Part shown: in pieces, positions 1 to 9,050 of the stretch
Layout of the letters: each line of letters opens with the position of its first letter
How positions within the stretch are numbered: position 1 is the first letter of the stretch
From: a virus
DNA: 25,514 bases
Virus record (IMG/VR): IMGVR_UViG_3300043540_000161
Coordinates: 1-25,514 of that record
Reading direction: 5' to 3' (one strand)
Program-made: the position numbers and the translations under genes
The notes under the pieces: generated by a model
Database searches by the model: none
Seen by the model: the letters and a program-made list of their open reading frames with translations, nothing else
What the model was told of the DNA's origin: nothing

Positions 1-90
1 TATAAAGCCCCTGTGTCCGGTGATTACACTGTGAGTGTGCAGTCATATATTGGCACGGGTGGTTTCTTCTTCGACACAAGTATTGGATAA
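1..90 (+). CDS. C-terminal end of an unidentified protein (partial)
   Basis: Frame 1 is open from the window edge to TAA at 88-90 and gives 29 residues ending FFFDTSIG. The Gly/Ser/aromatic pattern with alternating beta-strand residues (GDYTVSVQSY) resembles the last strands of a beta-sandwich such as the pre-peptidase C-terminal domain of secreted Bacillus proteases, but 29 residues are too few to assign a family. The start lies outside the window. It converges with the leftward module beyond it, separated by the hairpin at 96-118. Confidence 0.5.
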   Translation, partial: YKAPVSGDYTVSVQSYIGTGGFFFDTSIG

Positions 91-91
91 C

Positions 92-118
92 AAAAACTCA
101 GGGGCGTTTCCCCTGAGT
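92..118 (-). terminator. Rho-independent terminator of the leftward 129-814 module
   Basis: A perfect 9-bp stem (ACTCAGGGG at 96-104 with CCCCTGAGT at 110-118) encloses a 5-nt loop. Read leftwards the stem is followed by a T run (96 to 92). It lies 10 bp beyond the stop of the small HTH gene. The rightward side lacks a T run, so it is best suited to the minus strand, although it could also end the gene at 1-90. Confidence 0.8.
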
Positions 119-128
119 ATACATACGG

Positions 129-308
129 TTAAACATCTTCTTTCCTTTTGTACTTTGGTTTTGGTTGATCCCTTTCAATGAACCAAGCATTCCTTATCCT
201 TATCGCTTTCAATTCACCCTCCCTACATAGTCTTCTTACCCAGCTAGACGATACATCCCATAGCTCTCCAGCTTCCAATGAAGACATATATTTATCGTTA
301 TCAAACAT
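129..308 (-). CDS. Small helix-turn-helix (excisionase/MerR-like) DNA-binding protein
   Basis: 59 residues. The segment SSLEAGELWDVSSSWVRRLC followed by a short Gly-Glu wing and WFIERDQ matches the pattern of the short HTH_17/excisionase-like winged helix: an Ala-Glu-Leu helix, a Ser-containing turn, an Arg-rich recognition helix and a conserved Trp-Phe/Leu-Ile end. The tail is basic (KPKYKRKEDV). The start at 308 is chosen because AAGGGGG lies 7 nt upstream; an in-frame ATG at 362 overlaps the upstream stop as ATGA but has no good ribosome site and would run through a promoter and operator. Its own promoter-like TATAAT is at 331-336 with an operator just behind it. It is likely the regulator of its own module; excisionase or antitoxin roles are possible. 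Confidence 0.7.
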   Translation of the reverse strand: MFDNDKYMSSLEAGELWDVSSSWVRRLCREGELKAIRIRNAWFIERDQPKPKYKRKEDV

Positions 309-314
309 TTGAAA

Positions 315-330
315 GCCCCCTTCAGGGGCT
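315..330 (-). promoter_or_regulatory. Hairpin that would mask the ribosome site of the HTH gene
   Basis: Read leftwards, AGCCCC (330-325) can pair with GGGGCT (320-315), closing a 5-nt loop and burying most of the AAGGGGG ribosome site of the gene at 129-308. A transcript starting from the TATAAT at 331-336 would begin near 322-324 and lack the upstream arm, so only read-through mRNA from the 359-814 gene should fold this way. The pairing is seen; the regulatory effect is inferred. Confidence 0.45.
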
Positions 331-351
331 ATTATAGCACTTCCGAAAGTG
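331..351 (-). promoter_or_regulatory. Promoter -10 with operator copy 2 upstream of the HTH gene
   Basis: CACTTCCGAAAGTG at 338-351 is an imperfect inverted repeat differing by one base from the perfect palindrome at 844-857. One base further downstream in the leftward direction is a consensus -10, TATAAT (336-331). The operator therefore sits in the -35/-10 spacer, where a bound dimer would block polymerase. No good -35 is visible (TTACTG at a spacing of 16 is the closest). Confidence 0.6.
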
Positions 352-358
352 GCAGTAA

Positions 359-814
359 TCATATTATTACCAAGTCTTCTAGTTGCAACTTGAATTTATT
401 TTTTCTTACAAACAAAACTCCTTTTTTATCTATTTCTACTACCTGAGCATTTTCAAATACAATCGGAGAATCTTTTCTAAAATTTCCATTCTTTTCATCC
501 CAAAATTTAGTGTAATCCCCAGGTACGTTTACAATACCTCCATAATCTTTTATGGAACTAATTTTGTATAATGATTCGCTCTCGAAAAATGTAATTTCCG
601 TATCTTTTCTTAGCTTTCTTAACGCCAATTTTTCCGCACATTCTACGATTAAATCGAACTCCTCTTCATCCATATTTTCATACATAAAATCGTAAGCTAC
701 ATCTTCAGTTCTCTTTGAAAATTCTCTGGGTGAAATTTCTAAAACAAGATTATTTTTTGCATCTTCAATCAGTTCTTTTACAAGATCATCGCATATCCTT
801 TTTTCTAATTTCAC
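359..814 (-). CDS. Conserved-looking hypothetical protein, first gene of the leftward module
   Basis: 151 residues, not recognised. The N-terminal half is acidic and helical (residues 1-75, many Glu/Asp/Lys); the C-terminal half (about 80-151) alternates hydrophobic residues and ends in a short beta-rich block (VLFVRKNKFKLQLEDLVII) that looks like a small barrel. There is no signal peptide or membrane segment. The start is GTG at 814, with AAGGGGG 9 nt upstream; the ATG at 822 is out of frame and stops at once. It is followed by the HTH gene and preceded by a perfect 18-bp palindrome. Pairing with a small DNA-binding protein suggests an autoregulated two-gene cassette such as a toxin-antitoxin or immunity pair, but nothing in the sequence proves this. 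Confidence 0.65.
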   Translation of the reverse strand: MKLEKRICDDLVKELIEDAKNNLVLEISPREFSKRTEDVAYDFMYENMDEEEFDLIVECAEKLALRKLRKDTEITFFESESLYKISSIKDYGGIVNVPGDYTKFWDEKNGNFRKDSPIVFENAQVVEIDKKGVLFVRKNKFKLQLEDLVII

Positions 815-841
815 TTAATCATACCCCCTTAATTATATCGT

Positions 842-859
842 ATCACTTCCGGAAGTGAT
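842..859. promoter_or_regulatory. Operator copy 1: perfect 18-bp palindrome
   Basis: ATCACTTCCGGAAGTGAT is a perfect palindrome 28 bp upstream of the ribosome-site/start region of the 151-aa gene. A TATAAT on the minus strand (837-832) lies 4 bp downstream, the same order as at 331-351. With the second copy it defines a two-site operator system, probably bound by the HTH protein of the module or another plasmid regulator. Confidence 0.65.
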
Positions 860-962
860 TTAGAATATAGAAAATTTGTTCTCTCCCCCGGTTTCTAATG
901 AATACTTTTATAGGAATGCTTTAACAGTGCATGTTTACCCCCTCTCCCCTCTTTAATGAATG

Positions 963-1019
963 AAAAAAAGACCCCCAAAATCGTTACATTTTGGAGGTAT
1001 ATTCTAAATAGGGGGGTCT
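963..1019 (-). terminator. Large terminator at the end of the partition operon
   Basis: Read leftwards, AGACCCCC (1019-1012) pairs with GGGGGTCT (976-969) and is followed by seven T (969 to 963 side). Inside is a second perfect stem, CCAAAAT (994-988) with ATTTTGG (981-975), around a 6-nt loop. The two stems share bases, so the folded form is either a long arm or alternative hairpins. It lies 16 bp past the stop of the remnant ORF at 1035-1190. The rest of 860-960 shows only C/T-rich runs and no supportable gene. Confidence 0.75.
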
Positions 1020-1034
1020 ATTTTATTAGCATCT

Positions 1035-1190
1035 TTAGCAACTTCCAGAAACTAATTGTTGTTCTATTGTATACCTTGTTGTAAACATACCGTTTGGGAT
1101 TCCTAAACCATCCGTACCCTCTCGGCATTTTAAAACATAATGAATGAGCAATGTACCTTCGTATACTTGTGCGATCCGAGATACTTTTCT
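1035..1190 (-). pseudogene. Remnant of an unidentified gene (51 codons open, no proper start)
   Basis: The minus strand is open from 1190 to TAA at 1037-1035 with protein-like composition (residues such as YEGTLLIHYVLKC, DGLGIPNGMFTTRY and the end EQQLVSGSC). It begins directly after a stop and has no ATG or GTG with a ribosome site before an internal TTG. The downstream terminator sits exactly where a gene end would need it. I read it as the 3' end of a decayed gene once cotranscribed with parA, or a short gene with a non-standard start. No family was recognised. Confidence 0.35.
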
Positions 1191-1256
1191 TTATACTAGG
1201 TTTCCTTATTCCCCATTTTATGATACATCACCCACCATTTTATATTGTAATTAATA

Positions 1257-1490
1257 TTAATTTGATACAAACTTTGTTAACTCGTTTTTAATCGCCTCAT
1301 TAATAAACACTTTTTTAAATCCATGTCCTTGTTTTGTTGAAATCTTTTTTAATAATTTGGCAAGTTGCGGATCAATATCAAATGTCATACGAACAGGAGG
1401 TTGTTTTTTCTTTAATGCATCATATGTATACTCCTCCTCTATTTTTATCTCTTCAACGTCTGGGAACACATTCATTTCTTGACGACTCAT
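1257..1490 (-). CDS. Ribbon-helix-helix partner of ParA (ParB/ParG-type partition protein)
   Basis: 77 residues. Residues from about 33 carry the RHH pattern: a beta strand VRMTFDIDP, helix QLAKLLKKISTKQG, then helix KKVFINEAIKNELTKFV. The N-terminal 30 residues are acidic and probably flexible, as in ParG/Omega-type partition proteins where the arm stimulates the ParA ATPase. ATG at 1490 is preferred because AGAGGTG lies 7 nt upstream; the TTG at 1496 sits on top of that site. The gene overlaps the parA end by 38 bp in another frame, so the two are translationally coupled. It should bind the centromere/operator, probably the AT-rich palindromes at 2282-2332, and repress the operon. It could instead be only a copy-number regulator. 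Confidence 0.75.
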   Translation of the reverse strand: MSRQEMNVFPDVEEIKIEEEYTYDALKKKQPPVRMTFDIDPQLAKLLKKISTKQGHGFKKVFINEAIKNELTKFVSN

Positions 1491-2250
1491 TTTCAAGCAC
1501 CTCTTTCAGTAGATTCCAATATATTTTTGAATACCGTGATTCTGGATTAGATAAAATAACTGGTTTCTTAAACGTTGCAATGTACTCAGCGTATTTAACC
1601 GAGTGTGGTACATAAGTTTCCATAACTCGTATGGAGTCTTTGCAGATTGATTTGACTTGCTCCAATACATTCTTGTGTAAATTTGTGTTATCCCTAACTT
1701 TCATCGGGATAATCCCCTTTATCTTCGCTGTTATTCCCTTTTCTTTTTTGTACTTGTTAATCTTGTTTATTAGATTTAAAAGTCCATGTGCGTTAAAAGA
1801 GTCCGGCTCAAATGGTATGTATATCTCATCTGTAGTTATCATCAAGTTAGCGAAGATAATTTTTAGTTCTGGCGGTGAGTCGAAGAAAATGTAATCATAC
1901 TCATGTTCAATCTTATCGATTGCTTTTTTTAGCTTGGTAAAGTCTTGTAAGCTGTCTATTGTATCTAGTTCAAAGTAGTTCATGTCGTCGTTGGCTGGTA
2001 ACAAGTGTAAGTTATCTGTAATTTTTATTATTGCGTCTTCGGGGTGAAGTTGGCATACAAGAACGTCATAAATTGTATTCTCTAACTTGCTAGGCGTGTA
2101 TCCAAATGTGATAGCCTGATTACCTTGACCATCTAAATCAACAATCAATATTTTTTTATTTGGATATGCAAGAGATAGAGCAGAAGACAAATTACTGGTT
2201 ACTGTACTTTTACCAACACCACCCTTATTTTGTATAATGCTTACTTTCAT
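1453..2250 (-). CDS. parA: ParA-family partition ATPase
   Basis: 265 residues, a usual length for a small type Ib ParA without an N-terminal HTH. The deviant Walker A KGGVGKS is at residues 9-15 with its signature Lys, the A' motif VDLDGQGNQ is near 37-45, and the Walker B-like IFFDSPPEL has Asp at about 124. It segregates plasmid copies on the nucleoid together with a centromere-bound partner, here the RHH protein encoded by the overlapping next gene. The start at 2250 is chosen for GGGAGGTG 7 nt upstream; the upstream in-frame ATG at 2295 has no site. Upstream palindromes suggest autorepression. Its presence beside rep shows the element is kept as a low-copy plasmid. Confidence 0.93.
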   Translation of the reverse strand: MKVSIIQNKGGVGKSTVTSNLSSALSLAYPNKKILIVDLDGQGNQAITFGYTPSKLENTIYDVLVCQLHPEDAIIKITDNLHLLPANDDMNYFELDTIDSLQDFTKLKKAIDKIEHEYDYIFFDSPPELKIIFANLMITTDEIYIPFEPDSFNAHGLLNLINKINKYKKEKGITAKIKGIIPMKVRDNTNLHKNVLEQVKSICKDSIRVMETYVPHSVKYAEYIATFKKPVILSNPESRYSKIYWNLLKEVLENESSRNECVPRR

Positions 2251-2281
2251 TTCACACCTCCCATTATTAATATATTTCAAC

Positions 2282-2332
2282 AAACGTTTAAACAATACCT
2301 TTATATTTTTTTTAATATTGTTTTTAAAACAA
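2282..2332. promoter_or_regulatory. Palindromes upstream of parA (candidate partition operator/centromere)
   Basis: TTGTTTTTAAAACAA at 2318-2332 is a perfect 15-bp palindrome. At 2282-2295 AAACGTTT and GTTTAAAC overlap and the complement reads TTGTTTAAACGTTTG, sharing the TTGTTT half site. Minus-strand promoter elements also fall here (TATAAA near 2298-2303; TTGTTT with TATTAA at spacing 17 nearer the gene). The layout fits an RHH-bound operator that may double as parS. Confidence 0.45.
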
Positions 2333-2334
2333 AC

Positions 2335-2361
2335 AAAAAGACGCTATTTACATGCGTCTTT
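2335..2361 (-). terminator. Terminator insulating parA from the rep control region
   Basis: AAAGACGC (2337-2344) and GCGTCTTT (2354-2361) form a perfect 8-bp stem with a 9-nt loop. Leftward it runs into TTTTTGTTTG. It would stop any leftward transcript escaping the antisense RNA terminator before it reaches parA. It lies just upstream of the rep promoter. Confidence 0.7.
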
Positions 2362-2370
2362 AAAAATGTA

Positions 2371-2399
2371 TTGTAAAATTTTTGAACATAAGTTATGAT
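2371..2399 (+). promoter_or_regulatory. Promoter of rep
   Basis: TTGTAA (2371-2376), a 17-bp spacer and TATGAT (2394-2399) give a good sigma-A promoter. The start would be near 2406, leaving a leader of about 150 nt that covers the antisense RNA target and the attenuator before the rep start at 2559. Confidence 0.7.
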
Positions 2400-2419
2400 T
2401 AAAAAAAGAGCAAGAAAAT

Positions 2420-2469
2420 ACATAAAAACAAAAGCGACTAAACGGTTTGCACGCCACCAGTCGCTTCTT
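2420..2469 (-). ncRNA. Antisense RNA against the rep leader
   Basis: A strong leftward promoter (2504-2476) should start an RNA near 2469. The transcript folds at once into one hairpin: AAGCGACT (2466-2459) pairs with AGTCGCTT (2439-2432) around a 19-nt loop, followed by TTTTGTTTTT (about 2433-2424), a Rho-independent terminator. The product would be about 45-50 nt and fully complementary to the rep mRNA leader. By analogy with pT181/pIP501-type control it is expected to lower rep expression. No open frame of note lies in it. Confidence 0.7.
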
Positions 2470-2475
2470 GAATAA

Positions 2476-2504
2476 AGTATACACTATTATATTTAAATTA
2501 ACAA
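2476..2504 (-). promoter_or_regulatory. Promoter of the antisense RNA
   Basis: On the minus strand TTGTTA (2504-2499), exactly 17 bp, then TATACT (2481-2476) preceded by TG. This is closer to consensus than the rep promoter, as expected for a countertranscript made in excess. It faces the rep promoter at 2371-2399. Confidence 0.7.
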
Positions 2505-2524
2505 GTGTAAAAATATCAAGGAGC

Positions 2525-2556
2525 AACTTCCCGGGCAGTCGCTAGGGAGGTTTTTT
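2525..2556 (+). promoter_or_regulatory. Attenuator hairpin containing the rep ribosome site
   Basis: AACTTCCC (2525-2532) pairs with GGGAGGTT (2545-2552) through 8 pairs with one U-G, followed by a run of T (2551-2556): an intrinsic terminator shape. Its descending arm is the rep Shine-Dalgarno (AGGGAGG, 2544-2550), so folding would stop both transcription and translation. The loop holds AGTCGCT (2537-2543), a copy of the 3' arm of the upstream hairpin (2459-2465) and complementary to its 5' arm (2433-2439), which gives a switch between structures. Confidence 0.7.
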
Positions 2557-2558
2557 AT

Positions 2559-3413
2559 ATGCAAAAAGTTAACAAAGGTTGGAACAAAGGGTATTTTGAT
2601 TCTCCAAATGTAATTTTTGATCATGATAACCTCACTACATACGAAAAGCTTTGTTATCTTTACATGTGTAGGTGTGCAGATGACCAATTACAATCATTTC
2701 CTAGTTACGCTACAGTAGCAAAAAAGATAGGAGCAAAATCTAGAACAACTGCAATCAACACAGTAAAATCTTTAGAAAAAAAAGGATACTTAAAAGTTAA
2801 AAGGCGTAAGTTATCTAAGAAAGAGAATACTTCAAACCTGTACACACTTGTACACCCAAGCGAAGTAATACCTAGTACAGGAGATGTACCACCTAGTACA
2901 CCAGATGTACTACCCCCTAGTACAGGAGATGTACCACCTAGTACACCAGATGTACCCAATAAATACTCACTTATAAACCCTAACTATTTTATAAATACCC
3001 AACAACAACAAGAAAATGAAAATCGTGTTGTTGTGGTTCAGGAAAAATATGAATCTCTCTTTCAAAAAAAGCTAACAAGGAAACAGGCAATTGATCTAGT
3101 CACCTTGTCAGACGAAAACGAAGTAGATGTAATACATAAAATCGAGAACACGTATGAAATGCACAAAGTAGAACCGCGAAAGAGTATAATTGCTTCTGTA
3201 AAGCGTGCTATAACTCATGGAGATTGGGAGATTACTAGAGTAGAAAATAAGACGTACAAACCGCTTCCAAAGGCTGTTCAGGCTCAACTTGACCGCAAGA
3301 AAGGTATCGCTACCTACAAACCAAAGTACACACCTGAAGAGATTGCACGCAAGAAAGCGGAAATCGAACGAAAAATTGCTTTACTACATTCAGACAATCA
3401 AGATGCTTTTTAA
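2559..3413 (+). CDS. rep: Plasmid replication initiator with internal iterons
   Basis: 284 residues. Residues 25-85 form a winged helix-turn-helix of the HTH_36/DnaD-N kind (TTYEKLCYLYMCRCAD, then SYATVAKKIG and a recognition helix before KKGYLKVKRRK). Residues about 106-132 are a Pro-Ser-Thr-Asp repeat (four PST[GP]DV units) encoded by the 21-bp iterons. Residues 160-230 are a second helical domain (KLTRKQAIDLVTL, PRKSIIASVKRAI), and the tail is a basic coiled coil. It likely binds the iterons and recruits host replication proteins. A two-domain initiator with its origin inside its own gene is known for RepA_N plasmids and RepN of B. subtilis pLS32/pBS32. The start is fixed by AGGGAGG 8 nt upstream. 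Expression is controlled by the antisense/attenuator leader. Confidence 0.82.
   Translation: MQKVNKGWNKGYFDSPNVIFDHDNLTTYEKLCYLYMCRCADDQLQSFPSYATVAKKIGAKSRTTAINTVKSLEKKGYLKVKRRKLSKKENTSNLYTLVHPSEVIPSTGDVPPSTPDVLPPSTGDVPPSTPDVPNKYSLINPNYFINTQQQQENENRVVVVQEKYESLFQKKLTRKQAIDLVTLSDENEVDVIHKIENTYEMHKVEPRKSIIASVKRAITHGDWEITRVENKTYKPLPKAVQAQLDRKKGIATYKPKYTPEEIARKKAEIERKIALLHSDNQDAF
2871..2957 (+). repeat. Four 21-bp iterons in rep: candidate plasmid origin
   Basis: Units at 2871-2891, 2892-2912, 2916-2936 and 2937-2957 share CCTAGTAC-A-(GG or CC)-AGATGTAC, each with GTAC at both ends. Units 1 and 3 are identical; 2 and 4 carry CC in place of GG, so the block is also two 42-bp copies 45 bp apart, separated by three extra C (2913-2915). 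Related GTACA pairs occur just before (2840-2855). They encode the linker between the two Rep domains, the place where oriV lies in RepA_N/RepN plasmids. Confidence 0.75.
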
Positions 3414-3640
3414 ATGGGTCATAGCCCAAGGTAATACCCCCTAGAAACGTTAGAAAATCAAAAGTAGAGTAATAGAGTATACCGCTTAAAAAAGTATACA
3501 AACTTATATTCCCACAGGGGTTCCCGTTCCAGTATTTGTCTAACTTTATCGAACCATTGTATAGCGACACAAGCAAAAGGGCGGATGTTAAAATGACAGA
3601 AGAATTTAAGCAATACACGATAAAAAGGGAGGTAACACCC
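3414..3640 (+). other. Intergenic leader after rep with a weak promoter candidate
   Basis: This 227-bp stretch holds two GTATAC hexamers (about 3478 and 3495) and TTGTCT (about 3537) with TATAGC 18 bp downstream, a possible promoter for the next genes. It also contains an in-frame N-terminal extension of the next ORF back to 3536. No terminator with a T run and no convincing gene are seen. Confidence 0.3.
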
Positions 3641-3970
3641 ATGGAAAGAGAGATTAAAACACTACAAAATTTGCTGGAAACATTCATTGTGTCGCTTGAT
3701 TTAAGAAAGGGCGAGCAGATTGAAATTGATGAGGAATATGTTATCGTTCAGGGAAATAATTGCATTGGGGTATTAAAAAATGGTGACTTTATCGCATCTA
3801 TTCTAGAAGATAAGCCATTTTTAAGAAGAGAAGCTTATACATGGTTTATTGACAATATGGACTTGATAGCGGAAAAAGTAAAGGTAGAGCAGGATAAAAA
3901 CGAAAGGTTTATTCATAGCTTGCTAGACAAACTAGAAGAACGTATCATAAAACAAAAGGCATCCCTGTAG
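3641..3970 (+). CDS. Hypothetical protein downstream of rep
   Basis: 109 residues, unrecognised, charged and mostly helical. The N-terminal helix is EREIKTLQNLLETF; a short strand-rich part follows (VIVQGNNCIGVLKNGDFIAS); the C-terminus is a Lys/Glu helix suited to a coiled coil. ATG at 3641 has AGGGAGG 8 nt upstream; an alternative ATG at 3593 with GGGCGG would add 16 residues. It may be cotranscribed with rep or driven from the preceding leader, and is followed after 24 bp by the TM2 gene. A role in replication or partition control is only suggested by position. Confidence 0.65.
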   Translation: MEREIKTLQNLLETFIVSLDLRKGEQIEIDEEYVIVQGNNCIGVLKNGDFIASILEDKPFLRREAYTWFIDNMDLIAEKVKVEQDKNERFIHSLLDKLEERIIKQKASL

Positions 3971-3994
3971 AGCCTTGTAGAGAGGAATAGAAAA

Positions 3995-4285
3995 ATGTTG
4001 AACTTACTGTTGAAAAAAGATATGAAGCCCGAACAATTAGCAATGATTGAACAAGAGATCGAAACAAACAAAAAAAATATCCTCGTTGGATATCTGCTTT
4101 TATTATTTGGATTTCACCGTTTTTATTATCGAAAGATAGGATCAGGTATTCTTTATTTATTTACAGGTGGGGGATTTGTAATTTGGTTCTTGATTGATTT
4201 ATTGATTTTGCCGTCCATACATAGAACATATATGCAAAATTTGGAACTGGAAGTAGTTCAGAGAGTTAAACTTATGACATCGTAG
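3995..4285 (+). CDS. TM2-domain membrane protein
   Basis: 96 residues. A cytoplasmic-looking charged N-terminus (about 1-28) precedes two hydrophobic segments: residues 29-45, ending in the signature FGFHRFYYRKIGSG, and about 50-73, with FVIWFLIDLLIL carrying the conserved Asp. Aromatic/His residues between the helices and the buried Asp define the TM2 family, common on plasmids and phages of Firmicutes but without a settled function. AGAGG lies 9 nt before the ATG. Being next to the replication block rather than the lysis region argues for a lysogenic or plasmid-state role such as host interaction or exclusion, which is inference. Confidence 0.8.
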   Translation: MLNLLLKKDMKPEQLAMIEQEIETNKKNILVGYLLLLFGFHRFYYRKIGSGILYLFTGGGFVIWFLIDLLILPSIHRTYMQNLELEVVQRVKLMTS

Positions 4286-4289
4286 ATCA

Positions 4290-4317
4290 TTTGATATATC
4301 AGAAAATTAAGTATAAT
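4290..4317 (+). promoter_or_regulatory. Promoter for the 35-aa ORF
   Basis: TATAAT at 4312-4317 is preceded by TTTGAT/TTGATA (4290-4296) at a spacing of 15-16. TGATATATCA (4292-4301), a 10-bp palindrome, overlaps the -35, so it may be regulated. Confidence 0.45.
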
Positions 4318-4360
4318 ATTTATTTAAATGAACAAATCTTATCAATAAAGGGGGGGGAAA

Positions 4361-4468
4361 GTGAAAAATGACATAGATATATTGATAAACTTAGTTTTTT
4401 ATCAGATTAAAAAGCAAGGTTTAGACATACTTAATCAGTTTTTTTTTATCATCAAGAAACTTTTGTGA
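4361..4468 (+). CDS. Small hydrophobic protein (35 aa), antisense to the repressor end
   Basis: GTG at 4361 has a run of eight G (4350-4357) as a strong ribosome site and a promoter at 4290-4317. The 35-residue product has two hydrophobic blocks (DILINLVFYQI and LNQFFFIIKKLL) and basic ends, like a small membrane peptide. Its last 48 bases run antisense to the 3' end of the Xre repressor gene, so the genes converge without a terminator and each could affect the other. The function is unknown. A small immunity or toxin-like peptide is possible; the strong initiation signals are the main reason to call it. Confidence 0.5.
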   Translation: MKNDIDILINLVFYQIKKQGLDILNQFFFIIKKLL

Positions 4469-4774
4469 AAATAATATGATTGCATTTAATAATTTATCCA
4501 TATCCGTTTTAGAAATCGTTTCCGGTAACTTAAATTTAATAAATTCATCTCTTCTTTTTGAGTCTTCTAAGCCCAGAAGATAGTCTAAAGAAACATTGAA
4601 TAGCTTTGAAATTTTAACAAGAACGTCTGGGCGAGGAAGATTTTTTCCTGCTTCATATCCACCTATAGATGTTTGTAATATCCCCAATTTCTTTGCTAAA
4701 TCATCTTGTTTCATTCCGCGTTCAACCCTCAAAATTTTAAGTCTCTTTGAAAATACTTTTTCTATTTCATCCAT
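4421..4774 (-). CDS. Xre-family repressor (CI-like)
   Basis: 117 residues. The N-terminal HTH_3 domain (about 8-65) has RLKILRVERGMKQDDLAKKL, the turn GILQTSIGGYEAGKNLP and the family ending LFNVSLDYLLGL. The C-terminal 45 residues are a short helical dimerisation region without peptidase residues, so it is not LexA/CI-cleaved by itself; induction would need another route, such as an antirepressor or a metalloprotease encoded elsewhere. GGAGG lies 10 nt before ATG 4774. It is divergent from the Cro-like gene with the operator between them, the standard arrangement of a Firmicute phage lysogeny switch. Confidence 0.88.
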   Translation of the reverse strand: MDEIEKVFSKRLKILRVERGMKQDDLAKKLGILQTSIGGYEAGKNLPRPDVLVKISKLFNVSLDYLLGLEDSKRRDEFIKFKLPETISKTDMDKLLNAIILFSQKFLDDKKKLIKYV

Positions 4775-4853
4775 ATTTTTAATACCTCCAATTATTTATA
4801 TTGATAATAACACAAAAATATGAAAAATAACGAATAATATATAAAAAAAACTG

Positions 4854-4882
4854 TTGACATAACAATTAAATTGTTATATTAT
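4854..4882 (+). promoter_or_regulatory. Rightward early promoter with a 19-bp operator in the spacer
   Basis: TTGACA (4854-4859), 17 bp, TATTAT (4877-4882): a near-perfect promoter. The spacer and its edges are the perfect inverted repeat ATAACAATTAAATTGTTAT (4859-4877, one central base). A repressor bound here would exclude polymerase. Weaker related half sites (ATAATAAC, AATAACG near 4804-4832) lie toward the repressor gene and may be the second operator for autoregulation. Confidence 0.85.
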
Positions 4883-4930
4883 TAATTTAGAAGGTAACAC
4901 AAGCTACATTATAGCAGAAAGGAGGACACA

Positions 4931-5116
4931 ATGAGCAGAAAAAAATTAAAAAAGAGAAGAGAAGAAATGGGATACTCTCAGTACAAAATAGCAGATGAAC
5001 TGGGAATGACACGAGGAGGATACTCAAGCATAGAGCAATGGAATTGTAATCCGAGCATAAATACAGCCAAGAAGATAGCAAAGATACTAAAGGTAAAAAT
5101 CGAAGACATTTTTTAA
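4931..5116 (+). CDS. Cro-like Xre regulator
   Basis: 61 residues, almost all HTH_3: KLKKRREEMGYSQYKIADEL, turn, recognition helix MTRGGYSSIEQWNCNPS, and the end LKVKIEDIF typical of short Xre proteins. AAAGGAGG lies 6 nt before the ATG. It is the first gene behind the operator-controlled rightward promoter, opposite the repressor, so it probably plays the Cro role of turning down repressor transcription and later the early promoter. It could instead be a small activator as in some Bacillus phages. Confidence 0.85.
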   Translation: MSRKKLKKRREEMGYSQYKIADELGMTRGGYSSIEQWNCNPSINTAKKIAKILKVKIEDIF

Positions 5117-5132
5117 AAAGGTGAAATTAGAA

Positions 5133-5402
5133 ATGATGCACAGACTAAAAATCACTTGGGTAATGAAAGCGGCACACATGAGAGCATCTGAAAAAAGAAA
5201 TCAGTTCAATACATATAAAGACGCTTTATCAAATCAACTTAGAAAAATGTGGGCAGTTGCTAACGGTAAGTCTTCAGACGAGTTTCTGGATAATTCATTT
5301 GCATCATTCATGTTTGACGAAATTGTACTAGAAGTTGATGAAAATGGTGAGATACATGGCGGTGAAGTTTTCTTAACACAAGAATTAAAAAATGCCTCCT
5401 GA
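5133..5402 (+). CDS. Hypothetical early protein
   Basis: 89 residues, no family recognised. The N-terminal half is basic and helical (LKITWVMKAAHMRASEKRNQ) with an aromatic MWAVANG; the C-terminal third is acidic and beta-like (DEIVLEVDENGEIHGGEVF). ATG 5133 is preferred because AAAGGTG (5117-5123) lies 9 nt upstream, while the in-frame GTG at 5121 is part of that site. Second gene of the early operon, between the Cro-like gene and the recombinase, where phages keep small host-takeover or recombination accessory genes. Confidence 0.65.
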   Translation: MMHRLKITWVMKAAHMRASEKRNQFNTYKDALSNQLRKMWAVANGKSSDEFLDNSFASFMFDEIVLEVDENGEIHGGEVFLTQELKNAS

Positions 5403-5457
5403 TTGGCAGATCAGAAGACATTTAGGAAAGTAACTATTCGACAAGGGAGATTATAAC

Positions 5458-6189
5458 ATGATTACATCACAAAGTACAAAAAACATTTCTAAAGCCCTCT
5501 TCAAATTCCAAGGAATTATGCCAAGAATCAAACGAAATTCAAAAAATGACTACACAAAATCAAATTACGTGTCTTGGGATGACCTTGTAGACGCAGCAAT
5601 ACCATACCTCCAAAAATGCGGACTCTATTTCGAGCAAGAAGAAATTGAAAAAGACGGTTATGTAACTGTATCAACAAGAATTGTACACGCTGAAACAGAC
5701 GAATTTAAACATTTTGAACCAGTGCGAATTAAAGAGTCTACCCAAGGTAACTTGAATCATAACACTGGATCGTCACTTACATATGCGAAAAGATATTCCC
5801 TCACCTTGGCTCTAGCTCTACGTGGAACAGACCAAGACTTGGACGGAAACTATCCAGAGAATACGAACAAAAAAATAAATAATAATGATAATTCTAACAA
5901 GAATGGGGTTAAAACCAGTACGAACAGCAAACAAACTACTTATTCACCTTGGGCAGAGAAAAAAGTTGAACAAGACAATGTAATGGACTTGAAAGAAGAA
6001 GAACATAAGAAAAAAGGGATACAAAAGTTAGTTGCACTATGTAAAACGAATGGAATAAGCGATGATATGCGATACAAGATTACTACAGTTCATACAGGAA
6101 AGAAATCGAGCAAAGAACTTACACTTGATGAGCTTAGACATGTTTACAAAGTAATTTTGAATGATGTGAGAATCAATGAAGCGTTATAA
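5458..6189 (+). CDS. erf: ERF-family single-strand annealing protein
   Basis: 243 residues. The N-terminal half carries the ERF core: KALFKFQGIMPRIKRN at about 13-28, SNYVSWDDLVDAAIPYL at 35-51, then beta strands with Tyr/Val/Thr, and the family signature GSSLTYAKRYSLTLALAL at 104-121. The region after about 130 is Asn/Lys-rich and flexible, followed by a small C-terminal helical part. ERF proteins coat ssDNA and anneal complementary strands in phage recombination and genome circularisation. AGGGAG lies about 10 nt before the ATG. It is followed by SSB, its usual partner. Confidence 0.9.
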   Translation: MITSQSTKNISKALFKFQGIMPRIKRNSKNDYTKSNYVSWDDLVDAAIPYLQKCGLYFEQEEIEKDGYVTVSTRIVHAETDEFKHFEPVRIKESTQGNLNHNTGSSLTYAKRYSLTLALALRGTDQDLDGNYPENTNKKINNNDNSNKNGVKTSTNSKQTTYSPWAEKKVEQDNVMDLKEEEHKKKGIQKLVALCKTNGISDDMRYKITTVHTGKKSSKELTLDELRHVYKVILNDVRINEAL

Positions 6190-6343
6190 ATATCTGATTC
6201 TTATGATTGTGCTCATGATTCTAAACATTTATCAGGCTAATTGCGTAGTAAAAAGTGTAAGTTATGCTAACAAATTCTTTGCCTACCAACAAGGAGTGAT
6301 GGTAATTGAACGTATGCCAATTTATAGGGATAGTGACGGGTAA
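6176..6343 (+). CDS. Small protein (55 aa) bridging the erf and ssb genes
   Basis: An ATG inside the erf end opens a 55-codon frame that overlaps erf by 14 bp and the ssb start by 38 bp. The N-terminus MKRYKYLILMIVLMILNIY is a basic start plus a strongly hydrophobic segment, like a signal anchor; the rest is mixed (NKFFAYQQGVMVIERMPIY). The only ribosome-site candidate is a weak GTGAGA, so it may depend on coupling to erf. It also fills the otherwise empty 116 bp between erf and ssb. No function can be assigned. Confidence 0.45.
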   Translation: MKRYKYLILMIVLMILNIYQANCVVKSVSYANKFFAYQQGVMVIERMPIYRDSDG

Positions 6344-6590
6344 TAGTTTTAGAACTCTACCAAGTGGTACAAAGGTTATGCGTTTGAATTTAAAGGTTGG
6401 TAATGATAAGGGATTTACCTTTGTGGACGTTGACTTGTGGGACGAGCTAGCCATAAAAAACCAAAATATAACAGAGGGACAAGAAGTAATGACGATTGCG
6501 AAGTATGAAAAGAGGTCGTATGAAAGAGATGGTAAACGAATTCATGTACACTACTTCAAGGCAAGTTTCCTATTCAATATTACGGGGTGA
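6306..6590 (+). CDS. ssb: Single-stranded DNA-binding protein (short OB-fold)
   Basis: 94 residues from a TTG start with AAGGAG 9 nt upstream. The OB-fold pattern of phage SSBs is clear: FIGIVTGNSFRTLPSGTKVM, LNLKVGNDKGFTFVDVDLWDE, then EGQEVMTIAKYEKRSYERDGK and the closing strand VHYFKASFLF. It lacks the acidic C-terminal tail of host SSB, as in many phage and ERF-linked SSBs. It protects ssDNA and works with the upstream annealing protein. Confidence 0.85.
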   Translation: MNVCQFIGIVTGNSFRTLPSGTKVMRLNLKVGNDKGFTFVDVDLWDELAIKNQNITEGQEVMTIAKYEKRSYERDGKRIHVHYFKASFLFNITG

Positions 6591-6596
6591 AGATAA

Positions 6597-6896
6597 GTGG
6601 AGTTAACACAATATTTAAGAGTCAGCAGAAAATTGTTAGAAGATGAAAGCTATATGTATTTAAGACCAATTGATTGTTCTGTTCTAATATACTCACTTTT
6701 CCACGTTGATAAAAACACAATGGTGTTAAGAAGCAATTCACTTAATCAAGTAGCGAGCGGAACAAATTGCACAATTGGTCAATTACATTCTTCTCTTAAG
6801 AGGCTAAGTGAAAAAGGATTCTATAAATGTGAAAAATTAAACGGAACACTGAGCGACTGGAAATTCTTAAGAACAGATATTTTTATGTTTTGTTAG
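6597..6896 (+). CDS. Small winged-helix-like early protein
   Basis: 99 residues from GTG 6597; the ACGGGGTGA upstream spans the ssb stop and serves as ribosome site. The middle part (about 40-80) looks like a winged helix: LRSNSLNQVASGTNCTIGQL followed by a helix HSSLKRLSEKGFYKCEKLNG, similar in pattern to the N-terminal domain of DnaD-like proteins. The N-terminus (DESYMYLRPIDCSVLIYSLF) is aromatic-rich. Placed just before the replication initiator, it probably helps DNA binding or loading; family membership is inferred from pattern only. Confidence 0.65.
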   Translation: MELTQYLRVSRKLLEDESYMYLRPIDCSVLIYSLFHVDKNTMVLRSNSLNQVASGTNCTIGQLHSSLKRLSEKGFYKCEKLNGTLSDWKFLRTDIFMFC

Positions 6897-6910
6897 AGGA
6901 AGGTGTAAAT

Positions 6911-7861
6911 ATGGACTCCGGTTGGATCAAAGTCTATCGGAAGATTGTAGAAAGCGAGATTTGGAATAAACCACCCCACTATCTAAAAATATGGATGTAC
7001 TTATTAGTGAAAGCCCAACACAAAGACTATAAGGGTCTAAAAAGGGGTCATATTCGTACATCAATAAAAGAGATACAAGAAAACACATCTTGGAAAAGTG
7101 GTTTTAGAACAGAGAAAATCAGCACTGACCAAATAAAAAAGGTTTTTCAATGGATGCGAACACTAAACAACGGTGATGAAATGGGAGTACCTATGGGAGC
7201 ACCAACGGGCGCACCAATGATTAGCACCAAAAAAGGTACACATGGAATGGTTGTAACTATAGAAAACTACTGCGCTTATCAGGATAAAGATGAGAAAGAA
7301 AATGAAGGAAAAAGTAACATGGGAGCACCAACGGAAGTATCACGGGAGCACCGAACAGGCTCCAATATAAATAAAGAATGTAAAGAACTAAAGAAAAAAG
7401 ATATATTACCTCTTTCAAAAACCGAAAGAGGAAAAAGATACAGCTATCCAGAGGAGTTCAATGAGTTCTTTAAAGCATATCCAAAATCTGTTGAAAAGCG
7501 TAATACATTTCTGTCTTGGCAGAAAGCAGTAAATAACAAAAAAAAAGAACTGCGTGTAACGCCGAGCGAATTAGTAAGATCGGCAGAGAACTACAGAAAG
7601 TTTTGTGATAAGGAAGATAGAGAAAAGAAATACATTAAGAGTTCTACAACATTCTTGGGTGTAAAAGCACATTACCTTGATTACCTTGAATCTGAGGAAG
7701 TACAAGAAAACCACTTGGAAAGCAAAAAAAGAGACATTTTTGATAACGTCTGGAAAATTTACGCAAAGAAAGAAGAAGCATATGACAAAGAAAAATTCGA
7801 AGAGTGGTATAAAAATGGGGCTGATGAAGATGAATTACGAAGAACGCACTTTGGAAGCTGA
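6911..7861 (+). CDS. DnaD-like phage replication initiator/helicase loader
   Basis: 316 residues. Residues 1-100 match the N-terminal winged helix of phage replisome organisers (SGWIKVYRKIVESEIWNKPP, then a helix, then ISTDQIKKVFQWMRTL). A Gly/Pro/Met-rich linker (about 90-160) is encoded by repeated GGGAGCACC blocks. The C-terminal part (about 175-316) has EEFNEFFKAYPKSVEKRNTF and further helices like the conserved C-terminal domain of phage DnaD/replication proteins. It likely melts the phage origin and loads the DnaB helicase encoded next, whose start it overlaps by 32 bp. The ATG at 6911 has AGGAAGGTG upstream. Confidence 0.82.
   Translation: MDSGWIKVYRKIVESEIWNKPPHYLKIWMYLLVKAQHKDYKGLKRGHIRTSIKEIQENTSWKSGFRTEKISTDQIKKVFQWMRTLNNGDEMGVPMGAPTGAPMISTKKGTHGMVVTIENYCAYQDKDEKENEGKSNMGAPTEVSREHRTGSNINKECKELKKKDILPLSKTERGKRYSYPEEFNEFFKAYPKSVEKRNTFLSWQKAVNNKKKELRVTPSELVRSAENYRKFCDKEDREKKYIKSSTTFLGVKAHYLDYLESEEVQENHLESKKRDIFDNVWKIYAKKEEAYDKEKFEEWYKNGADEDELRRTHFGS
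7181..7359 (+). repeat. Repeats in the DnaD-like gene: candidate lytic origin
   Basis: ATGGGAGTACCT (7181), ATGGGAGCACCAACGG (7193), CGGGCGCACCAATG (7206), ATGGGAGCACCAACGG (7319) and CACGGGAGCACCGAACAGG (7341) share yGGGmGyACC. The third overlaps the second by a few bases. They lie in the interdomain linker of an initiator gene, the place of the lambda origin in gene O and of several Firmicute phage origins. Confidence 0.55.
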
Positions 7862-9050
7862 ACAATACATTCTGGGAGCTGTCTTTATAGACAACAACGT
7901 GATGTTGGAACTCATTCTAAAACTTAGTCCGGAAGATTTCTTATATGATTTTCACAAAAGAGTTTTCAAGAAGATGTGTGTTTTGTTTTCAAATGATCAA
8001 GTGATAAATCCGCTTTCGATAAAGGAAGATGTAACTCATTTAATATCCACTGTAACAACCCTACACACCATTAACTTTTATATAGACATTGTAAAAAAGA
8101 GTTCAATACGAAAAAGAGCAAGGGAAATAGGACATAGAATACAAATGTTCGCAGAAAACAAAGAGGTGGAAGATGAAGATAAGTTTTATCAAGAGATTGA
8201 GGAGATAATGGATCATTTGAGGTCTGAAAAAAGAAGTGGTTTGATCACAACGCAAGAAATGAAATCAAAGTATCTAAACTATCTTGATGAGCCAATTGAA
8301 AAGATTACTACTGGATTTAAACGATTTGATGAATGGTGTGGAGGACTTGGTCGTGAGTGGTTGTATATCCTCTCTGCAAGGCCATCAACTGGGAAGACTG
8401 CAAAAATGTTACAGATGGCCCTACATATGTCCGTACATGGACAAGTTCTCTTATTCTCTCAAGAGATGAAAGACATTTCACTTTACAACCGCATGTTATC
8501 CCACCTAACACAAATACCCCTCAAACGAGTAAAAGCAAAAGAATTAAATAAACAAGAGAGAAAAGAAATAAGCGACTATTTGAATGTAATAGGTGAACTA
8601 TATCTACACATTGGAGATAAAGGGAGCTACAGTGCGGAAGAAGTAAGAGCAGAAGCACGAAAGATAAAAAAAGAACATGGTAAATTAAAAGCCATATTTG
8701 TGGATTATCTTGGGATCATGGATATACCACACAAATCGAATAAGACATATGCTCAAGCAGTTGGAGAAGTTAGTAAAAAAATGAAATCCCTTGCCATGGA
8801 ATTATATTGTCCCGTTATTTTGCTCTGTCAGCTAAACCGCGAAAGTGAAAAATCAGATAAGCCATCTCTAAGCCATCTGCGTGACTCTGGTAATATAGAG
8901 CAAGATGCAGACATTGTTGAGATACTTTGGAAGGAAGATTCTAATTCAGATATTGTTAATTCGAGCATAGTAAAAGGTCGTGACATTGGTACAAAAGATT
9001 TCAAGTATCAGTTTCAAGCATCAGTACAAAAATTTGTTGAAATGGGTTGA
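7830..9050 (+). CDS. DnaB-type replicative helicase
   Basis: 406 residues, slightly short for DnaB (about 450). The N-terminal domain starts as in the family (TLEAEQYILGAVFID). Walker A ARPSTGKT is at 183-190, Walker B AIFVDYLG has Asp at about 292, motif H4 is VILLCQLNRE near 330-339, DSGNIEQDADIVEILW near 352-367 and the arginine-finger region is VKGRDIG. It is the hexameric 5'-3' helicase at the phage fork. ATG 7830 is chosen because GGGG lies 9 nt upstream and it gives the standard N-terminus; 7815 and 7824 are alternatives. Confidence 0.92.
   Translation: MNYEERTLEAEQYILGAVFIDNNVMLELILKLSPEDFLYDFHKRVFKKMCVLFSNDQVINPLSIKEDVTHLISTVTTLHTINFYIDIVKKSSIRKRAREIGHRIQMFAENKEVEDEDKFYQEIEEIMDHLRSEKRSGLITTQEMKSKYLNYLDEPIEKITTGFKRFDEWCGGLGREWLYILSARPSTGKTAKMLQMALHMSVHGQVLLFSQEMKDISLYNRMLSHLTQIPLKRVKAKELNKQERKEISDYLNVIGELYLHIGDKGSYSAEEVRAEARKIKKEHGKLKAIFVDYLGIMDIPHKSNKTYAQAVGEVSKKMKSLAMELYCPVILLCQLNRESEKSDKPSLSHLRDSGNIEQDADIVEILWKEDSNSDIVNSSIVKGRDIGTKDFKYQFQASVQKFVEMG

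Follow-up and report, generated by a model that had tools for sequence, protein, structure and literature searches.

A putative pT181-type antisense attenuator in the rep leader of a phage-plasmid-like element

The leader of the rep gene in a viral DNA record has the features of a countertranscript-driven transcriptional attenuator of the pT181 kind, a reading that we hold at a probability of roughly 70%. The window analysed here is the entire IMG/VR virus record IMGVR_UViG_3300043540_000161, which has 25,514 bases and is possibly a fragment. Its rep gene (2559-3413, plus strand, ATG at 2559) encodes a 284 amino acid replication initiator of the HTH_36 / phrog_270 type. As in other countertranscript-driven transcriptional attenuators, the leader has an antiterminator: segment b, which lies inside the predicted antisense target, pairs with a segment, c, that overlaps the terminator arm by four bases. 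Antisense-driven attenuation of rep, which the first-pass annotation of this DNA had proposed with no antiterminator in its description, is the best-supported reading of the leader, and it is strengthened by comparison with the real pT181 sequence.

Alongside the HTH_36 initiator, the window encodes ParA, from a divergent gene upstream of the rep leader, and a small Arc-like protein. A resolvase, an ERF recombinase and a DnaB-like helicase are also encoded, together with the terminase, portal, protease, capsid and tape measure genes. This combination of plasmid-type and phage genes fits a phage-plasmid. The terminase shares 67-68% identity with its counterparts in C. difficile phages, and the host is therefore likely to belong to the Bacillota. 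Searches of phages and plasmids gave no DNA kin of positions 1-8000, scans with Rep or ParA as single proteins were equally without relatives, and the exact letters of the attenuator were absent from the viral contigs searched; a close relative of the window's own rep leader was found by none of these three kinds of scan. A 25.5-kb faecal phage, MT835606, has the terminase in common, and no such rep was present among the ORFs of more than 120 amino acids in its first 12.5 kb. Two other features concern replication. About five tandem, iteron-like repeats of about 21 nt (CCTAGTACAGGAGATGTAC / CCTAGTACACCAGATGTAC) are found within rep at 2850-2976 and are a candidate origin inside the rep gene, as in pSK41. 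The ORF at 6890-7861, located before the gene of the DnaB-like helicase, has no Pfam match and, judged by eye, is similar to a phage replication organiser; one initiator for lytic growth and another for the plasmid state may exist in this element.

The leader carries two opposing promoter-like sites. The plus-strand site (2371-2399) consists of TTGTAA (2371-2376) and TATGAT (2394-2399), separated by 17 bases, and the rep transcript is expected to begin near 2406. The minus-strand site (2476-2504) consists of TTGTTA (2504-2499) and TATACT (2481-2476), with the same spacing, and the antisense transcript is expected to begin near 2469. The opposing promoter had been described as the stronger one, but both are weak matches with a score of 9/12. 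This AT-rich stretch contains 10 promoter-like sites where 3.9 are expected, and since such matches are frequent, each site is weak evidence. Their frequency is also a point in favour of an alternative that we consider quite improbable, in which there is no antisense switch: the hairpin would simply be read on both strands, the promoter match would be due to chance, and a constitutive leaky terminator would keep Rep low.

The predicted antisense RNA (2418-2469, minus strand) has about 45-52 nt and could be described as a hairpin followed by a U-rich tail, with a fold of -16.2 kcal/mol. A second, back-up terminator on the minus strand, overlooked by the first-pass annotation, is located at 2330-2361, where 2361-2354 forms a stem with 2344-2337 (fold -9.6, z -2.9). 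Leak through the first minus-strand terminator would yield an RNA of about 130 nt ending at the second.

The letters and positions given earlier for the elements of the leader are correct, and every named element is present. The sensing hairpin (2432-2466, plus strand), which was obtained by folding and is the predicted target of the antisense RNA, is composed of arms a and b. Segment a, AGCGACT (2433-2439), is complementary to AGTCGCT, which is seen in the sequence both at 2459-2465 and at 2537-2543. The latter copy, segment e, lies inside the attenuator loop. Pairing of arm a with its neighbour b or with loop e, as had been suggested, was computed in both cases. Segment b, AGTCGCTTCTTGA (2459-2471), is the antiterminator, and its partner is either a or segment c, TCAAGGAGCAACT (2516-2528), which runs into the ascending arm of the terminator by four bases. 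Folding of the leader first gave the helix 2463-2471 : 2516-2524; the extended helix, 2459-2471 : 2516-2528, has 12 of 13 possible pairs and reaches the AACT that starts the ascending arm. Helix a:e (2433-2439 : 2537-2543) encloses b:c without a knot, and both make one ON fold. The repeated AGTCGCT, first taken for a second antisense target, therefore makes better sense as the outer helix of the antiterminator fold.

The attenuator (2525-2556, plus strand) comprises an 8-bp stem, made of AACTTCCC (2525-2532) and GGGAGGTT (2545-2552), a 12-nt loop and a T-run (2551-2556), and it folds at z = -3.2. By sequence and fold alone, this 8-bp stem with T6 is an intrinsic terminator located just before rep. 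Its descending arm contains the Shine-Dalgarno GGGAGG (2545-2550), as the earlier description of a terminator-shaped hairpin holding the ribosome site had it, and this site is computed as closed once the terminator forms.

Such a location of the Shine-Dalgarno is also compatible with mainly translational control as in pSK41, in which case antisense binding would bring about a hairpin that masks the rep Shine-Dalgarno, and termination would be slight or absent. The control region of pSK41 and pPR9 resembles the window in having an antisense RNA (RNAI) against the rep leader and a ribosome site in a hairpin; it differs in that its control is described as translational rather than by termination. 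Furthermore, pPR9, which has the pSK41 control region, has an HTH_36 domain in its Rep (PMC5703833). We nevertheless regard mainly translational control as unlikely in the window. Six T are found directly 3' of the stem, a layout of intrinsic terminators that also occurs in pT181, whose control acts mainly through termination (PMC5703833). The Shine-Dalgarno, which the calculation closes in the full leader, is closed at equilibrium with or without the antisense RNA.

Folding of the 165-nt leader gave z = -3.7, and no shuffle out of 200 folded as well. The strength of b:c was matched by 2 of 5000 shuffles and that of the a:e duplex by 27 of 5000. A 7-mer with two complementary copies was found in 2 of 1000 shuffled leaders and in 13 of 539 equal-length, overlapping stretches sampled along the contig. 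These short segments were compared with shuffles in place of the duplex energies of long segments, own against swapped, which were unspecific because the segments are long and overlap in the window; B segments of other leaders also bind the C segment of the window. The b:c complementarity thus exceeds chance, which argues against a leader that lacks an antisense switch.

Stepwise folding was used to follow the nascent RNA, and blocking of 2418-2469 served as a stand-in for pairing with the antisense RNA. The a:b hairpin is dominant up to 2520. At 2543 the nested fold is dominant, with computed probabilities of 0.97 for b:c, 0.93 for its extension into the terminator arm and 0.95 for a:e. In unblocked RNA the terminator takes over from 2550. 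When 2418-2469 is blocked, b:c and a:e are abolished and the terminator reaches 0.98. In these calculations, antisense binding favours the attenuator, as claimed earlier, in nascent RNA up to about 2547, but not in the complete leader, where the terminator has an advantage of about 5 kcal/mol whether or not the antisense RNA is present (0.94-0.95 in free RNA). This dominance at equilibrium is what a constitutive leaky terminator without a switch would also give, and it means that any switching must be kinetic. In addition, CCC (2530-2532) is unpaired in the ON fold and offers a foothold for rapid refolding, which counts against attenuation. A kinetic switch operated by the antisense RNA is plausible from these computed folds. 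When the same calculation was applied to pT181 as a control, the terminator had 0.08 in free RNA and 0.99 in blocked RNA, which reproduces the known pT181 switch and argues against the absence of a switch in the window.

The attenuator would work as follows, if, as we infer, both RNAs are made, the transcript terminates and copy number responds. Without the antisense RNA, arm b would exchange partner a for c during synthesis of the leader, and the freed a would pair with loop e of the attenuator. The resulting nested fold would mask the loop of the terminator and the start of its ascending arm and delay the terminator, which would let the polymerase pass into rep. A minus-strand RNA on 2418-2469 would occupy both a and b and leave c and e free. 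The terminator would then form, and the transcript would end directly before the start codon with its Shine-Dalgarno hidden. A rise in antisense RNA would in this way lower the supply of Rep and, with it, the copy number.

The closest likeness is to repC/RNAI of pT181. There too, an antisense hairpin lies over the leader, an antiterminator arm is complementary to the start of the terminator, and a Shine-Dalgarno in the descending arm is followed by a U-run and the ATG. In the pT181 sequence, GGAGTCGCTCAC is able to pair with GTGAGCGATTCC; GATTCCTTAA/TTAAGGAGTC form the terminator, which contains the Shine-Dalgarno and is followed by GATTTTTT and ATG. A terminator merged with the ribosome site, which had been called unusual, is classical, since stem-loop IV of pT181 has it (PMC5703833). 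A SHAPE-seq study of pT181 reported the same order of events, in which antisense binding sequesters the antiterminator (PMC4878617). The two systems also differ. The pT181 initiator is a RepC of the Rep_trans type, whereas HTH_36 is the only Pfam family matched by the Rep of the window; the antisense RNA of pT181 has 87 nt against the predicted 50 nt or so; its antiterminator is the 5' arm of the hairpin, while b is the 3' arm; and, unlike that of pT181, the ON fold of the window loses at equilibrium. The Rfam model ctRNA_pT181 (RF00242) has no match in the window, while it scores 105.6 bits on the pT181 record itself. The Inc18 plasmids pIP501 and pAMbeta1 resemble the window in that their antisense RNAIII induces premature termination of the rep mRNA (PMC4981023). 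They differ in their initiator, RepR/RepE, and in the length of RNAIII (136 nt), and in pAMbeta1 the terminator is apart from the ribosome site. By the ORF list, no small Cop repressor gene of the Inc18 kind adjoins rep in the window.

Relatives of the Rep protein, at 28-46% identity, were found in Alicyclobacillus, Paenibacillus and other records. In their leaders, an antisense hairpin occupies the position and strand of the one predicted for the window, and an antiterminator pairing is present. This hairpin has an outer stem of 7-9 bp, a short inner stem, a bulge on the 3' side, a U-rich tail and a loop of mostly eight bases that is CGNCCAAA-like and ends in CAAA. Its pairs covary, in an alignment that was fitted to the model and includes the window and some secondary hits; a covarying antisense hairpin ahead of related rep genes counts against a leader that has no antisense switch. 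A covariance model, R1, was built from the hairpins of six relatives, with the window left out. Its best match in the whole window is 2427-2468 on the minus strand (16.5 bits, E 0.013, against a background of about 14 bits), which suggests kinship with the antisense hairpins of the relatives. R1 had no match on a phage of the same size and gave unrelated matches of up to 14 bits on pAMbeta1; its whole-genome matches of 31-36 bits include plain terminators with no rep nearby. No Rfam family matches the leaders of the relatives at its cut-off. Rfam matches in the leader of the window (BSnc120 and others) were rejected, as they were far below the cut-offs.

In Alicyclobacillus, the antiterminator pairing is kept despite sequence change (CGTCCCAT : ATGGGACG in L002, GTCCCAG : CTGGGAC in L004). 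In L010, L021, L055 and L080, the same calculation pairs the arm upstream and places the antiterminator outside the hairpin covered by the antisense RNA, and therefore the relatives need not all work alike. The Shine-Dalgarno is within a terminator-like arm in these four leaders and in L049. The leaders of the relatives differ from that of the window in sequence and in their greater length, and in several of them the ribosome site is separate; nor is the a:e pairing a general feature of these leaders. A copy of the sensing-hairpin arm is also located at the attenuator loop in L049, and the duplicated loop sequence, presented earlier as unusual, is thus not unique to the window. C. difficile phage-plasmids have Rep relatives; the two leaders inspected (L006 and L007) do not have the arrangement of the window.

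Two observations concern the hairpin itself. Its loop seems inverted in the A. acidocaldarius plasmid (L002, 2297-2336) when compared with L004 (2292-2333) and L024 (2794-2835), and the R1 motif is on the mRNA strand in this plasmid and on the opposite strand in the other two. Such a flip could change incompatibility. The same antisense hairpin is also found in two further genomes ahead of ORFs of types other than HTH_36 Rep (L080, 1002-1042; L091, 1501-1540), and the antisense control module may move between replicons.

In the window, an attenuator of the pT181 type would thus control the gene of a different initiator, and would do so in a phage-plasmid, which is ordinary in kind and new as a case. 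In the largely open-access literature searched, antisense control of copy number was nowhere described for a phage-plasmid. From the comparison, HTH_36 rep genes seem to be preceded by a family of antisense RNAs that is absent from Rfam. More tentatively, and with less than even confidence, we propose that a family undetected by Rfam controls HTH_36 and other initiators of plasmids and phage-plasmids of the Bacillota, and that in the window two nested helices, one of them formed with the terminator loop, make up the antiterminator. If the attenuator operates as modelled, this phage-plasmid would be equipped with a textbook plasmid copy-number brake.
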